DNA of 20,822 nt from Ginkgo biloba (lineage: Eukaryota > Streptophyta > Ginkgoopsida > Ginkgoales > Ginkgoaceae), in NCBI GenBank assembly GCA_024626585.1, contig JANKJI010000005.1:122796809-122817630 (forward strand), written 5' to 3'. The translations under genes were made by a program, and so were the position numbers. Shown piece by piece: positions 10,659 through 20,822 of this stretch. The notes under the pieces were generated by a model. It saw nothing but the letters and a program-made list of their open reading frames with translations, did not search any database and had not been told where the DNA came from. Position 1 is the stretch's first letter. The number at the start of each line of letters is the position of its first letter.

Positions 10659-10758
10659 NNNNNNNNNNNNNNNNNNNNNNNNNNNNNNNNNNNNNNNNNN
10701 NNNNNNNNNNNNNNNNNNNNNNNNNNNNNNNNNNNNNNNNNNNNNNNNNNNNNNNNNN
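10659..10758. other. Assembly gap (100 Ns)
   Basis: Exactly 100 N bases. A round number usually means a scaffold gap of unknown true size. It lies between repeat B copy 3 and repeat A copy 3, where near-identical repeats would make assembly break. Confidence 0.95.
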
Positions 10759-13549: not shown

Positions 13550-16500
13550 ATGTTTTTGCACAGGTTGGAAAAGGGTATGGAATTCCATCTAATCAAGTGG
13601 GATGAAGAATTAATTCTCTCTTTTCACGAAAAAGCCACAAGCGATGGCTATCGATTAGCAACTGTAGAAGAAGCAGCCGAAAATGTTGAGAAGATCCGCG
13701 AAATGTTTAAGGGAACCAAATGGGATGATCCGCCTGAAAACACACGTCTCTTAGACGGTTGGATGAGTCGTAGCAAAAAGCCCACTAATGGCTACAAGCA
13801 ATTTCTCTGGGATTGGATGCTTGTCGTTAAAATTGTCACAGGAGGTATTAGTATACTCTATATTTTTTTCCCTGGGATAGAGAAATTGTGCTTTATTTAC
13901 AAATTAAAATGTTCTGGTATTCTTATAATTGCGATTGCTGCACCTACAGAAAAATATTCGTCCATCGACGACGTATATTCAACTCTATTCAAGAAGGCTG
14001 GGTTGCAGAAGCACGCCACAAAAGAGATGGAAGAAGCGCTCTTGTTTTTCACTCGAGACGGTTACACAGAGTTAGTTATGTGGCTCCTCAAGTCAACCAT
14101 GGTAGATCCTCTGCCATTATTAACCCACGATGAAAAGACGATCTTACACCTGGCAGTTGCAGCAGGCAAAGCAGAGATCGTGGAAGTCATTTCACAGTAC
14201 TGTGTGGCGCAAAACATGAGAAAATATTTCATAGGGAAAGCAGATGCTGTGGGCGTGACCGCTCTGCTGGAGGCAGTAAAACGAGAGCAACAAGAGATCG
14301 TGAAGATACTGTTAGCCAGCGGAGCCCAACCCCTGGATGAACGCGACGTTGATGGCAGAACTGCATTACACTACGCTGCACAGCTCAAAAACCAAAAAAC
14401 TGCAATCCGGTTCTTAAAATTGCTTTTGGATGATTGCTATTCGGCGAAATGCAAAGCTCTTGTGTCGTCGGATACATGCATTTGCAGACCTCTTTTGCTC
14501 TGTGCCAAAGCGAGAGGAATCGGCACTGCTGAGGATAGTGCAAAATCACGGGGTGCTGAAAAAATTTATAATTTTTTGTTGCAAAAAAGGAGGGAATTGC
14601 CCAAAGGAAACCTGCTGCAGATGGCCGCACGTCTGGACAGCAAAGTCATGATACGGGAGCTTCTCAACAGAGGCTTCCTCAATGCAAAAACGTCACATTT
14701 TCTGCAAGAGGAAATGGAACGCGTGGAACAAGGTACGGTCTGATTTTTTCGTTGATTTGAATTATCAGAAAAGGAAAATAATTATCATAGAATTAGGAAT
14801 AGAACTATCCATGTTTTTAGATCAATAAATAATTCAGATCATATGATATCACAATGTGAACTCTGGATGAAGGATTAATTTGAAGAGATTCATAAAACTT
14901 GTGTGCCTCGCAGTTCGGAAGCAAATCGATTCTATTAGCAGAAGTGCAGCTGATACTCCAGCAGCCGACGACAGCCTGGGTAATAGCTTTCGTTGTTTCG
15001 TATGCGCGTTTCGTATTGGAAATAATTGAATTTTCGTAAGAATTAAAGCAAAAATATCTAATTGCAATCGTTGTTTGAAATAGGAAGAATCGACTTCGCG
15101 AAAGGATTAGCTGCACTTTTCCTAAATCCATTCATTGCGTCTCCAATCGTCGTGGGAATTTTAGGCGAATGGGGTACTGGAAAATCTAGCCTGATGATTC
15201 AGGTGAACTTTCTCTTTTAATTTGAACATAAAAATGATTTTATATAAATATATACTGTTCTTCTTCCCACATAGAAAAGTAAAATCATAAAACAGTATCT
15301 ATCCCATTAACACACACATAAATCCTCTATTGCATAAAACAGTATAGATCTAATTGTATAAATATCTATGCTCGAGAAGGAAGTACTCCTCTATTGCAGT
15401 TACACATAAATCTATCAGTAGAAGTACTTGACATTTCAGAACCAAAAAAAGCATTTCAGTACTCTTGGTTGTGATCCGATCTCATACGCCAACGTTGGGA
15501 CCCGAGGCTGCTGGACCGTCCATCCTTTCACAAAAGTTTCCATGGAATTTATGAGAATTTCTATAGAGATACACCTGATCTGATCTATCTGTCTGCGAAC
15601 ATGTTTGATATGAACTATTTGAAAAGATATGCATATTAGATATAGTCTAAGAATGATTTGTTTGCTCTTCAATACATCAATTACATCATTTAGTGCAAAT
15701 TACCTCTCCTACCGATAAGTTCAGCCAATAGGGACTCCGTTCTGAAGGCCATTTGTGAACTGTATGCCTAGGTGGAGCATAATCTATTACAAATGGCAGC
15801 CGCGCTAGCATTCACAAACTTGTCTCAGGGAGAGAAAGTAGAGACAAATTTATTGTCTCCTGAAGGACAAAAGGTATACAATAGCATCAACGAAATGGCT
15901 GCACCGTTGTTCAGGAAAGATCTGCTGAAAGTCGAAAAGGTAGAAACTGCACAAAGTAGTGAACGAAATTAACCTAATTTCTCCAACTTGTTAACAGAAT
16001 CCAGCCCTCACCGAATCTAATTTTGTTAATTGGCAGAGGAATAAGGATCCCGTTTTACGTTTTCTTGCGGAATATCGAGATGATTTTAAGAATGAATTTA
16101 AATCATTAGCGGTCATGGACCGCAGCCAGATGGTGAGAAGTCTAACTTTTAGCTTCTGATTGGCAACTTTCGTTGACATATATGCTTTAACCATTTTTAT
16201 TCGCTTCTCATGCTGATTTCTCTTCTGCCTCGAAGATCCAAAGCACCTCCACTCAAAACAATGGCTTATTGACAGTGGAAACGGAACATCAACCATTGCG
16301 TACTCCTCCAGGTGTACTGACTGTTCGTTACAATGCATGGAGGTATCGCAAAGAGTCTGAAGCCTGGGCGGGGCTTGCAGTGGAAATAACCAAGGCAATC
16401 GAGGCAAGAATGACCAGGGCCCAGCTGCTGGCTACCCGGTGGAGATACTCTTGGAGGAAAAAGAGCTCCAGTATATGGCTAGACCTCATCTTCCCATTGC

Positions 16501-18478
16501 TGTTGGTGCTGATTCTTACCCCGTGGATGGCCTGGTTGGCATGGGTTTTGATCAGTAAATCAAACAACAAGGCACTTGAAAGCGGCTTCAAATATGGAGG
16601 CATACCTGTTACTGCTCTAGTAATTGGATGGACTGCAATCTCCAAGATCATGTCTATACTGAAGCCTATCAGTGAACAAATAGCAGGATACATTTTCCAA
16701 TCACCAGACCATTCAGACAAGCTGGGTTACCAGGAGAACGTTATTGAAGACATTATGTTTCTCAAGGAAGAGATTGGGAAAAAACCCTCAAAAATCTGCT
16801 TACTTTTGGCAATGTGTTGGAACCGATTGAGTTTTTATAAAACGCCTTATACGACTGGTATGAGAGCCGGTCTACAAATCAGTCCAGCTGCTAATTGTCA
16901 GCTTCGGTTAATTGTGTTTGTGGATGATCTCGACCGGTGTCCAGAGAATGTCATCTTAGAGGTAAGCTGTCAATACTCGTCCTATTCAATTGATCAAGAG
17001 TCGATGTCGATTCATTACATGTATGTGCATGTTCTCTGGTATAAAATAATTATGTGGATTGGAGTATAGGTATTATCGGCCATCAATCTCGTTTTAGCCG
17101 TGTGTGAAATCAACGTTGTTTTGGGTATGGACAAGACGATGATTGAAAGAGCAATCAATTCAAAGTTTGCAGATGAAAGTTGCAAGGAAAGAGAGTTGGA
17201 AGAGCAGGCTGACAAGTATTTGCGGAAGATAATTCAGTTGCCTTTAGATTTACCAGATCCGAGCGATAAAAATTTGGACAAATTTTTGGATACGCAACTA
17301 GGTGTAGAAGAAGAGAAGGAATCCTCAGAAAATCCTGACGAAGGCAGATCTAACGATAAAGACGAATCCTCGGGACTAATTCACTTCTCAGCAAACGTTC
17401 AAGGCCTTAGCCGGGCAACCTCTTCTTCAGGAAACGATGGAGGGTCTATTCAGCTGCCACAACATCCTGACATTCCATCTTCATCAGGTGATCAAAACAG
17501 GATAAATATTTCTTCTCTGGTTATACCCATGCTGAGCTCTATGCAATTGGGTTCTGGCCGCCGCTGTGGAAACACGGCAAGCTCTCACATGAATCACCCT
17601 GTATTATTGAACATATCTACTGACCCCCTGCAAGGCAAAGAAGGAGAAATAAGCGGTAGATCGCATCATGAAGATGAAAATTACCCAATTTCTATAACAG
17701 ACGAGATGCTAATACCCGAGTACAGCAGCAGTGAGCGGAAGGCTTTTCGTAAGCTGAGTAGATCGGTGACATACAGAGGAAAGAATCCGCGTGATTGGAA
17801 GCGTTTCCTGAATTACCACAGGCTCTCATGGAACATACTTTCCCAAAGGGCGGAAGTGACGGCATTGACAGGATGGCAGTTGCAGCTTGTCATGTGGATT
17901 TTTGTGTGCTGGCGATGGAGGGATCAAATGGATATTCTTATAAAGGTATATTGTAATATGCATTCATAATTCATAATTTTTTCAGATTTGGAATAAATAA
18001 TTCTTCGCCATAATCATGACTTGCTATGCAGAAATGGCCACGCTATATGGATGATCGCGTCTGTTCACTTGGAGAGATTGTTCAAAACTGTATCTCTTAC
18101 AGGAAAAGGAAGGAGGAAGCGAGGCTGCAACATCGACGAGCGACACATTACAACGCAGGCCGGACAACCCTTGATGAATTAGACGTAGAGAAGGAGCTGC
18201 ACCACGTACACATACAGACGGAAAAGGAGAAGCAAGGGTTTTCAAAAGAAGAAACAGAGCAACGAAAAATACAGAAGGAAAAGGAAAAGAGAAGGCGACA
18301 CGATGACGAGGAGTTGATTAGATTTGGAGAAATTTTGAGCGACAAATACGATGTATCCAAGGAAGCTATTAGACTGTTCCAGGTCTTTAGATTTCACTGT
18401 AAGCCGAGACACCTCTCTATTCCCTTGACAGAAGAAGAAAAGAAATGGAAGGAGATGGATCGTTTGATTCATCTGTGA
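13550..18478 (+). CDS. Ankyrin-repeat KAP-family P-loop NTPase (Kidins220/ARMS-like layout)
   Basis: Reconstructed exons: 13550-13844, 13950-14732, 14914-14979, 15084-15202, 15772-15939, 15998-16132, 16236-16961, 17070-17945, 18032-18478. All introns are GT-AG and the joins keep one frame, giving about 1204 aa. Residues 1-98 are of unknown type. Ankyrin-type repeats span about 124-345 (TILHLAV, TALLEAV, TALHYAA, NLLQMAA). The KAP NTPase follows: DDSLGRIDFAKGLA, Walker A GEWGTGKS (409-416), YNAW (554-557), hydrophobic segments about 602-628 and 643-664, Walker B VFVDDLDRC ending at 757, LGMD (782-785), YLRKIIQLP, an acidic/Ser-rich linker (about 827-970), NPRDWKRFLN (1003-1012) and a charged tail. 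KAP proteins are membrane-associated NTPases; the family includes Kidins220/ARMS and bacterial PifA. The presumed role is signalling or defence at a membrane, but the substrate is unknown. ATG 13577 is an alternative start, and CACAG before 13564 could be a splice acceptor for an unseen upstream exon. Exons are more GC-rich than the flanks. No stop or frameshift breaks the model, so it looks functional. Confidence 0.85.
13845..13949 (+). other. Candidate 105-nt in-frame intron (could be retained)
   Basis: Donor GAG|GTATTAGTAT and acceptor CACCTACAG|AAAAA delimit 105 nt, a multiple of three without an in-frame stop. It is much more AT-rich than the flanking exon. Splicing joins ...IVTG to EKYSSIDD. 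Retention adds 35 mostly hydrophobic residues (including ILYIFFPGIEKL and GILIIAIAAPT). I favour splicing because of composition and good splice sites, but both products are in frame. Confidence 0.55.
14024..14689 (+). other. Ankyrin-repeat region of the KAP gene
   Basis: About six helix-turn-helix repeats. The clearest are repeat 2 (residues about 158-190, KTILHLAVAAGKAEIVEVI), repeat 3 (about 198-229, GVTALLEAVKREQQEIVKIL) and repeat 4 (about 231-262, DGRTALHYAAQ). Flanking repeats at about 124-157, 275-312 and 318-345 are degenerate: they keep the LL...G or NLLQMAA part but lack the full TPLHxAA motif. Ankyrin repeats bind protein partners. In Kidins220/ARMS a longer array sits in the same position, N-terminal to the NTPase. 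Confidence 0.85.
15203..15771 (+). other. Longest intron of the KAP gene
   Basis: 569 nt between the Walker A exon and the next exon, many times the other introns (58-181 nt). It contains an exact 13-bp direct repeat (CATAAAACAGTAT at 15286 and 15333) and two nearby copies of CCTCTATTGCA-like sequence, suggesting a small local duplication. The open frame on the other strand here is not supported. A short extra exon inside it cannot be excluded. Confidence 0.6.
15940..15997 (+). other. Very short intron (58 nt)
   Basis: Donor AAAAG|GTAGAAAC and acceptor TTAACAG|AATCC. At 58 nt it is below the usual minimum of about 70 nt for plant introns, but read-through meets a stop (ERN then TAA), so removal is needed to keep the frame. 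TTAAC or CTAAT-like sequence could be the branch point. Confidence 0.6.
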
Positions 18479-18904: not shown

Positions 18905-19490
18905 AACCAACATCTACTAGTTGTTAGTTTTTCGCAATTCAAGTGTTCTCAATGCACAATTCATGTTTGAGTTTTGGTAAACATGTCAACATACATGCTT
19001 TCGATGCCACAAAACTTCAAGACCATTTTTTCATCTTTGATTTTGTCGCGAACAAAGTGGTGTTGGATTTCTATATATTTTGTTCTTGCATGGAACTTGG
19101 AATTTCTCGTCAAAGCTATGCAACACTGATTATCACAGTATATGATAGTAGGATGTTGTTGTTCATATCCCAAATCTTTGAGTAATTGTCTCAACCAAAC
19201 TGCTTCCTTCATTGCTTGCGTTGTTGCCATATATTTAGCCTATGTGCTAGACAAATCAATCGTTGGTTGCCTCTTGCTTCTTTAACTGACTGAGTCATTT
19301 CCAATCTAAAAATAATAAACTGTCGTCGATCTTCTACTATCAACATTACCCGTCCAATAAACATCGCAATACCCCATCGCTTGTACAGGCAACAACTTTG
19401 TTTCCTCAAAAACAAATTCCATGAAACGTTGTCCCTTTCAAATACTTGAAGATTCTTTCAAATACCATCAATACACAACATGCAGATTTT
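18905..19490 (-). pseudogene. Ty1/copia polyprotein 3' end (RT end and RNase H), decayed
   Basis: Minus-strand frames give, in order, RIFKYLKGTT, GYCDVYWTGNVDSRRSTT, SKRQPTIDLSST, KYMATTQAMKEAVWLRQLL, YCDNQCCIALTRNSKFHART and VDMFTKT. These are the hallmark blocks of copia RNase H, including the Asp of GYCDVYW and of CDNQ. In-frame stops occur (for example after VYYF and before AKYMATT). TKYIEI replaces the usual TKHIEI. The last 89 codons remain open. Only the C-terminal part is present; at about 19490 the element gives way to LINE sequence on the other strand. Confidence 0.88.
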
Positions 19491-20105: not shown

Positions 20106-20822
20106 AGTTGCAGGTTGGCACTATAATGGCATGATTTGGTCTTCCCCTGGTACAATACATGATGTCATCAATGCTCATGACATTATCTTCTTTACTGAGA
20201 CACATGAAAGTCCTTAGCGTCCTCTACCTTTGTTTTCAGGTTTTGCTTGGTTCTCAGTGCACTGGAATTCTTGCCGAATTGGGAGTGTGAGAGGTTTACA
20301 TGGAGTGGCTTGTTTAGTATGACAAAAATACTTGGATAGGATGTCTCTTATCAGTACAGATGAGCATGCTTGATTCTTATGGATGAAACTCTCTAAAAGT
20401 GCAAATGTACAAGATGTGCACTTTGTAGTATGTTATATCCTACCATTAGGATCTGACTACTCTATCATGATGGATGGTGACCCCTACCTAGATTTATATC
20501 CAGATATCTCTATATTCTCACTGTTGGGTGAGGTGATTATGATTGGAGATTTTAATGCATGTACATGTACAATACAAGTTCCTATCCATGACTTGTTAGA
20601 GGATACTCTTCTTGCAACCACTATAGACCCAGAAGATTTTGGCATGTCTCGAGCCTCTTTGGATGAAGCGCACGTCACCTCCTATGGCAGATTCTTGATT
20701 GGCATGGGTGAGTCTTGCCAACTCTTTATTTTGAATGGTTTATCTTGCTTCCCAGATTCACATGGGCTTACTTGTTTCAACCACAAAGGAGGAGCTAGTG
20801 TAGTTGATTATCTCTTGACATC
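20106..20822 (+). pseudogene. LINE ORF2 endonuclease domain (partial, decayed)
   Basis: A single frame, +1 relative to ORF1, gives GWHYNGMIWSS (the W-N-x-N-G position of the exonuclease-endonuclease-phosphatase fold), HDIIFFTETHESP (catalytic-site Glu of TETH), VIMIGDFNA (Asp/Asn of GDFNA, 20539-20559), GRFLIGMGESCQLFILNG and ASVVDYLLTS at the window end. Three in-frame stops (after HESP, after ACLV, after DEHA) inactivate it. Reverse transcriptase would follow outside the window. Confidence 0.85.

Follow-up and report, generated by a model that had tools for sequence, protein, structure and literature searches.

Does the gene at positions 13550 to 18478 of the window (the whole 20,822-nucleotide stretch of DNA analyzed here), which couples ankyrin repeats to a KAP-type NTPase, share its history with the animal protein Kidins220/ARMS, or did it arise in another way? 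At the time of Aravind et al. 2004, KAP NTPases in eukaryotes were reportedly known only from animals. A KAP-type domain was later mentioned in an NLR-like gene of a green alga (PMC7145615) and is likened to the present one by its description, not by sequence. With a large bacterial-type KAP family in gymnosperms, land plants would gain a further class of P-loop NTPase, plants would provide an example of the domestication of a prokaryotic conflict NTPase, and trees would have a candidate set of receptor-like genes open to testing.

Gene model and domain organization

The first-pass annotation had described nine exons with intact coding, and this was borne out. The spliced frame (13550–18478, + strand) was open over 1204 codons with no stop, and all eight introns had GT-AG boundaries. 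The start codon more likely lies at 13577 than at 13550, because 9 of 22 relatives begin exactly with MEF, which matches the tenth codon of the gene model; starting there, as the homologues suggest, gives 1195 codons. Intron 1 (13845–13949, 105 nt) is itself open in frame, and it is supported as an intron because Ginkgo protein P0001 is without those 35 residues. That the locus is an artefact (contaminating bacterial DNA, motifs arisen by chance or a dead gene) is extremely improbable: it has eight introns, an open frame and close relatives in Ginkgo, it lies more than 122 Mb into its contig, and a plant retroelement fragment adjoins it (by our own reading of the sequence).

All exons lie on the + strand. 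Exon 1 (13550–13844), with the likely start codon, encodes an N-terminal domain with the motif GYRLATVEEA...RLLDGW, and exon 2 (13950–14732) carries the ankyrin repeat region at about residues 105–345 (13967–14689), as placed by Pfam and by the fold of the Ginkgo relative P0001. After a linker (exon 3, 14914–14979), the KAP domain starts in exon 4 (15084–15202), where Walker A, GEWGTGKS, falls at 15164–15187 (residue 409; its lysine is residue 415, numbering from 13550). Exon 5 (15772–15939) and exon 6 (15998–16132) contribute to the insert that separates Walker A from YNAW (residues 433–545) and is 36% identical to P0001. Exon 7 (16236–16961) contains YNAWRY (16329–16346, residue 554), the predicted membrane segments and Walker B, VFVDDLDRC (16914–16940, residue 749); both Walker motifs are intact. 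The remaining NTPase core, a low-complexity linker, NPRDWKRFL (17784–17810, residue 1003) and a conserved helical part follow in exon 8 (17070–17945), and exon 9 (18032–18478) encodes a charged tail and the stop codon.

Pfam matched KAP_NTPase (PF07693) at 115.1 bits (E 5e-33, cut-off 20) and Ank_2 at 64.1 bits (E 1.8e-17), with the ankyrin repeats N-terminal to KAP. Together with the motif positions, this confirmed the earlier description of ankyrins followed by a P-loop NTPase with KAP hallmarks. A check for another NTPase family with a better Pfam score left KAP standing, as no other matched the window protein at E ≤ 0.1; neither NB-ARC nor LRR, the domains of plant NLRs, matched at that threshold. 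The hydrophobic segments that had been claimed between Walker A and Walker B were recovered in part. A simple hydropathy cut passed one segment, residues 598–630 (about 16461–16559), whereas a second, at about residues 642–668 (16593–16673), fell below the cut and was placed by alignment to P0001, whose structure model has two long helices at the hydrophobic segments (pLDDT about 50–80 there). KAP proteins of eukaryotes, and some of those of bacteria, have membrane helices inserted between the two Walker motifs. The window protein is probably a membrane-anchored, energy-using switch.

The N-terminal domain is tentatively described as C-type-lectin/APT-like. Pfam gave no match to the window's own domain, and a PDB profile search gave two matches at the level of chance (E 0.67 and 0.95). 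Pfam on this domain in 10 members returned three families, each in one member (best E 0.08), and PHROGs likewise returned three, again from a single member apiece (best E 0.005). Ankyrin proteins took up the results of fold searches with whole models, which were little test of the other parts.

A multigene family in gymnosperms

The window gene belongs to a large multigene plant family and is not peculiar to a single genome. Three protein searches, each limited to about 8000 candidates, listed at least 81 members among their matches, comprising 23 Ginkgo, 43 Cryptomeria and 10 Taxus entries, one Wollemia transcript, three unlabelled contigs and one transcript of an unlabelled eukaryote (P0137). 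No angiosperm- or animal-labelled member was among these matches. Relatives were present in Ginkgo, Cryptomeria, Taxus and Wollemia, where the first-pass annotation had asked for conserved orthologues in related species. The ankyrin-KAP proteins of the first three (e.g., Gb_38713) share the domain order of the window protein and resemble it from end to end, at 50% identity over 98%; many relatives have more ankyrin repeats and some have none. Across the 68 members in which Walker A could be detected, ankyrin-motif counts ranged from 0 to 25. Locus numbers in the Cryptomeria, Ginkgo and Taxus names adjoin or cluster, as read from names, not map positions. No publication on gymnosperm KAP proteins appeared among the best-ranked matches of a literature search, and the family is apparently undescribed.

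Identity to P0001 followed a sensor-like pattern, at 54% in the ankyrin part, 79% in the Walker A region, 72% from YNAW through the membrane segments, 65% at Walker B and 79% in the helical part. In two recent Ginkgo pairs, by contrast, the ankyrin part was not faster than the core: it was 77% identical versus 77–88% in core regions for P0001–P0002, and 94% versus 92–94% for P0003–P0004. The genome carrying the window has at least two copies of the gene, and because the best matches of these two copies are different Ginkgo genes, the gene is old. Plastid contig C17 carries reading frames that we read as ndhC, ndhK, ndhJ, atpB (cut off where the contig ends) and rps4, a set that speaks against pines and gnetophytes as the host. 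The identity of the two copies at codon positions 1, 2 and 3 was 61.9, 70.8 and 44.4% (998 aligned codons, some aligned across introns). The long residence proposed earlier is therefore upheld by relatives in Ginkgo and conifers, by the differing best matches of the copies and by the greatest divergence at third codon positions.

Bacterial kinship and origin of the KAP domain

Sequence comparison assigns the KAP part to the bacterial type. Its best non-plant match was bacterial P0090 (E 1.4e-40), which is 27% identical across 99% of the KAP core. A plant-only profile gave 200–239 bits for the nine nearest bacterial-type KAPs, from rows pre-selected by similarity. The bacterial-type KAP NTPases closest to the plant family include P0090 (a Longimicrobium MAG), P0097 (Solirubrobacter), P0135 (a Sporichthyaceae MAG), P0091, P0093–P0096 and P0136. 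These proteins are colinear with the plant KAP through Walker A, FNAW...WAGLA, the hydrophobic stretches, GYQ..VI.D, Walker B and NPRE.KR, and motifs common to both are still evident after Walker B, in NPRE.KR and in the helical part. They differ from the plant proteins in their N-terminal region and in a shorter insert after Walker A, and no ankyrins were found in the five nearest that were scanned. Insert length between Walker A and FNAW was considered as a shared mark and rejected, as it is 84–98 residues in P0090, P0091 and P0093–P0097 but about 31 (nearly absent) in P0135.

Trees, as proposed at the outset, placed the plants as one clade among bacterial KAPs, with support of 100/98 in a 72-row tree and 100/99 in a 51-row tree. 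A scan of bacterial genomes gave at least 80 loci; among the best 80, the top one was the gene of P0135 itself and the remaining 79 were 22–31% identical. A viral route was rejected; a scan of viral contigs gave 19 loci with weak KAP matches (best segments 24–35% identical).

The layout had been called Kidins220/ARMS-like, and the two do share an order in which KAP, with its inserted membrane helices, comes after the ankyrins. This order, along with the same layout in the unlabelled-eukaryote transcript P0137, would fit a vertically inherited membrane scaffold like Kidins220/ARMS, lost in most plants, that tethers signalling proteins and in which the NTPase is minor. We consider such a scaffold quite unlikely. 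Kidins220 is described as a four-pass protein with 11 ankyrin repeats and animal C-terminal binding motifs (PMC4789535), whereas two segments are predicted in the plant protein. No animal KAP was among the matches listed by the three protein searches. A Kidins220 fragment scored just 32 bits against the plant-only profile, ranking 111 of 112 non-plant rows, a value whose comparison with the 200–239 bits above is limited by the fragment, which is no database sequence and lacks the stretch before Walker A. Orthology with Kidins220 was rejected as the best reading on these grounds, and a special kinship was not supported, as the KAP part, within the limits of that comparison, resembles the bacterial subfamily far more than it does the Kidins220 fragment. 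Given this bacterial-type KAP, the Kidins220-like layout is most likely convergent.

Among the three origins offered earlier (an ancient gene lost in many lineages, a transferred gene, or an independent fusion), the best fit is transfer from bacteria and then fusion within plants. The KAP part would have passed from bacteria to a gymnosperm ancestor or to an older plant; the acquired gene would then have gained introns and become joined to ankyrin repeats, with many copies arising in some lineages. A history in which early eukaryotes or early green plants already had a bacterial-type KAP and almost all lineages later lost it, with no late transfer, seems rather improbable to us. It is favoured by the alternative topology joining plants with other bacteria, which was not rejected (p-AU 0.385), and by P0137 carrying the family in an unlabelled eukaryote, but it needs many losses, and no other named eukaryote group was among the KAP matches listed.

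Putative role of the ankyrin-KAP proteins

As a whole, the explanation we favour, with about even confidence, is a bacterial-derived plant ankyrin-KAP family that acts as an NLR-like membrane sensor switch, probably in defence. The helix pair would anchor the protein in the membrane and leave every domain facing the cytosol. A ligand would be recognised by the ankyrin repeats and N-terminal domain, and ATP bound by the KAP domain would drive the assembly of an oligomer that relays a signal or disturbs the membrane. What suggests the NLR-like sensor switch is the number of copies, the clustering of locus numbers and the variation in ankyrin count, and the family may act like immune sensors. The likeness to plant NLR receptors is one of working principle only (an NTPase switch, variable repeats and many copies), as those carry NB-ARC and LRR in contrast to the KAP, ankyrin and predicted membrane anchor of the window protein.

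The same features, with the conflict-type bacterial relatives, weigh against a bacterial-type membrane NTPase whose work lies outside defence, in ordinary signalling, in development or in the remodelling of membranes, a possibility that we take seriously while ranking it as the less probable. In its favour, the defence link of the window gene is one that we infer, the core motifs are conserved, and the ankyrins are not faster than the core in the recent Ginkgo pairs. Plant ankyrin membrane proteins also have diverse roles. More speculative, and in our view somewhat unlikely, is the broader proposal that a bacterial conflict-system NTPase, captured by the ancestor of gymnosperms or of a wider plant group, was combined with ankyrin and lectin-like sensors into a second, NB-ARC-independent, membrane-anchored immune receptor repertoire in gymnosperms.

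A link to conflict systems is supported by four of nine bacterial-type relatives scanned. P0154 carried TIR and NB-ARC above the cut-off, P0172 carried NB-ARC above it and TIR just below, P0145 had a caspase domain and P0165 a phosphoesterase. Against such a link, no effector domains were found in the other five, which are the nearest, and the neighbourhood read around one bacterial locus (L035) held no recognisable defence genes. Counter-invader systems can carry KAP in place of STAND NTPases (PMC8195603). PMC13279940 suggests 7- or 8-mers for QatA, a KAP protein, and reports that defence against some phages persists upon its loss. PADLOC models of the phage-defence KAP proteins QatA and PifA matched Ginkgo P0001 (E 2.2e-18 and 9.3e-17, respectively), with the match limited to the NTPase stretches; the window gene differs from both in being a spliced plant gene, outside any operon, with ankyrins that PifA and QatA do not have.

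Gene model and a second copy in the same genome

The window gene (13550–18478, + strand) is composed of nine exons that, joined at GT-AG sites, give 1204 stop-free codons, and its reading frame is genuine. Pfam identified a KAP_NTPase domain (115.1 bits) and ankyrin repeats in the encoded protein and listed no rival NTPase family at E ≤ 0.1, which bears out the intact ankyrin-KAP gene of nine exons proposed in the first-pass annotation. Translation probably starts at 13577 rather than 13550, because 9 of 22 relatives examined begin with MEF. Intron 1 is in frame and stop-free; the residues it would encode are absent from P0001, a Ginkgo relative. The 1-kb blocks holding the gene have a GC content of 36–44%, vs. 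23–36% in the preceding blocks. By eye, a frame adjoining the gene (18961–19239, − strand) resembled a copia-type polyprotein fragment, and an open frame at 20374–20820 (+ strand) resembled a LINE-type endonuclease (GDFN...SVVDYLL) and continued past the window end. A 100-N assembly gap occupies 10659–10758.

The assembly containing the window (1.87 Gb, 31 contigs; window at C5:122796809–122817630) was searched with the window protein. At least 14 exon matches (such counts are lower bounds) were found in two places only, the window and contig C4, where they run from 89880539 as far as 89884453 or beyond. The C4 copy (L014, C4:89878500–89888400) has the same exon order, with offset frames around L014 2855–2890, in exon 2, and altered Walker motifs (GASGSGKS and VDNLDKC) instead of the canonical ones. 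VDNLDKC is also present in the Ginkgo protein P0087 (Gb_01062), which may point to a conserved class whose catalytic site has changed. The exon 7 and 8 pieces of the C4 copy were 68% and 71% identical to P0087 (203 and 259 aligned residues), and those of the window gene best matched Gb_38713 (63% and 50%). Because each copy best matches a different Ginkgo gene, the two probably diverged before the Ginkgo and window-genome lineages parted. Identity between them by codon position was 61.9, 70.8 and 44.4% over 998 codons, rough figures since some codons were aligned across introns, and this pattern suggests selection on the protein. Two small contigs, C17 and C14 (L029 and L032), were read as plastid (ndhC, ndhK, ndhJ, atpB, rps4) and mitochondrial (cox1) pieces. 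From its closeness to Ginkgo, the genome may be that of a gymnosperm, at a guess a cycad.

A plant branch of the KAP family

The window gene belongs to a conserved branch of KAP proteins in plants that has apparently not been described before. Three protein searches were carried out, with ~8000 candidates scored in each. The first listed 49 proteins, of which 35 were from plants; the second (KAP core as query) and third (profile A1) contributed the best 120 of 152 and of 267 matches, respectively. Among the matches listed, at least 81 entries belonged to the plant family by name and motif: 23 from Ginkgo, 43 from Cryptomeria (90%-identity clusters from two annotations, not loci), 10 from Taxus, one from Wollemia (named as a transcript), three on unlabelled contigs (P0051, P0068, P0076) and P0137, a transcript from an unlabelled eukaryote. 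No KAP entry among these matches was labelled angiosperm, fern, moss or animal, some rows being unlabelled. P0137 has the N-terminal motif, ankyrins and KAP domain of the plant family and falls next to the gymnosperm rows, with a long branch; the family may thus reach outside the gymnosperms.

Canonical Walker A and B occurred together in 58 of 82 sequences (the window's included), the remainder being partial or altered. A simple motif count gave 0 to 25 ankyrin motifs in 68 members. Several sets bore closely spaced locus numbers (e.g., SUGI_0704230/260/290 and Gb_16795/16796), which are names rather than map positions. As listed, four conifer members among P0028, P0061, P0066, P0077, P0013 and P0022 had KAP without ankyrin domains; the gene models of Taxus P0013 and Cryptomeria P0022 also include retroelement or ALOG domains and may be annotation fusions.

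Bacterial relatives and origin

The best non-plant KAP matches in the KAP-core search (best 120 of 152) were bacterial or unlabelled. Named bacterial relatives were P0090 (Longimicrobium MAG), P0097 (Solirubrobacter) and, from the profile A1 search, P0135 (Sporichthyaceae MAG), whose gene was also recovered from the DNA of a bacterial genome bin; P0091, P0093–P0096, P0098 and P0136 were taken as bacterial from their likeness to these three. Plant and bacterial KAPs aligned as a single domain, colinear from Walker A and an insert that varies, through (Y/F)NAW...WAGLA, a pair of hydrophobic stretches, GYQ..VI.D and Walker B, to NPRE.KR and then a helical part. Walker A to FNAW spanned 72–222 residues in plants vs. 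27–45 in the distant KAPs read off, and 84–98 in seven close bacterial-type KAPs. Insert length was rejected as a shared plant-bacterial mark because the close relative P0135 has ~31 residues.

A plant-only profile, built from 16 sequences, scored the nine closest bacterial-type rows at 200–239 bits; P0098 followed with 165, and the rows after it stayed at ≤128. The likeness of layout to animal Kidins220/ARMS noted in the first-pass annotation holds. A Kidins220 fragment, which reached 196 bits with the Pfam KAP model, scored 32 bits (rank 111 of 112 non-plant rows), a comparison that is indicative, as the other rows were picked by similarity and the fragment is not a database sequence. The window gene and Kidins220 do not appear to share common descent.

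For trees, 192 profile-matching rows less 27 of low coverage left 165, from which 72 and then 51 were chosen. In the 72-row tree, P0137 grouped with the plants in a single clade (100/98), and the long-branched P0098 adjoined it (90/82). In the 51-row tree, from which P0137, P0098 and other long rows were removed, plants formed one clade (100/99), P0090 came next (88/81), and plants plus close bacteria were supported at 93/94. An alternative tree joining plants with other bacteria gave p-AU 0.385 and hence was not rejected.

Possible links to defence

Our best guess, unproven, is that the plant ankyrin-KAP protein is a sensor switch in defence. Window and P0001 ankyrins were 54% identical and their cores 65–79%; the core was not the more conserved part in the Ginkgo pairs P0001–P0002 and P0003–P0004, so faster sensor change is unsupported. 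The PADLOC models for QatA and PifA matched the NTPase of P0001. Published excerpts state that KAP can replace STAND NTPases within counter-invader systems (PMC8195603), that KAP NTPases are among the targets of diversity-generating retroelements (PMC10907252), and that QatA binds DNA, with 7- or 8-mers suggested, and defence against some phages persists after its loss (PMC13279940). Domains were scanned in nine bacterial-type relatives; in five, those nearest to plants, non-KAP domains gave sub-threshold matches only. TIR and NB-ARC domains were found in P0154, a caspase domain in P0145 and a phosphoesterase in P0165, all unnamed metagenome proteins, and the relative P0172 contained NB-ARC with a TIR match just under the cut-off.
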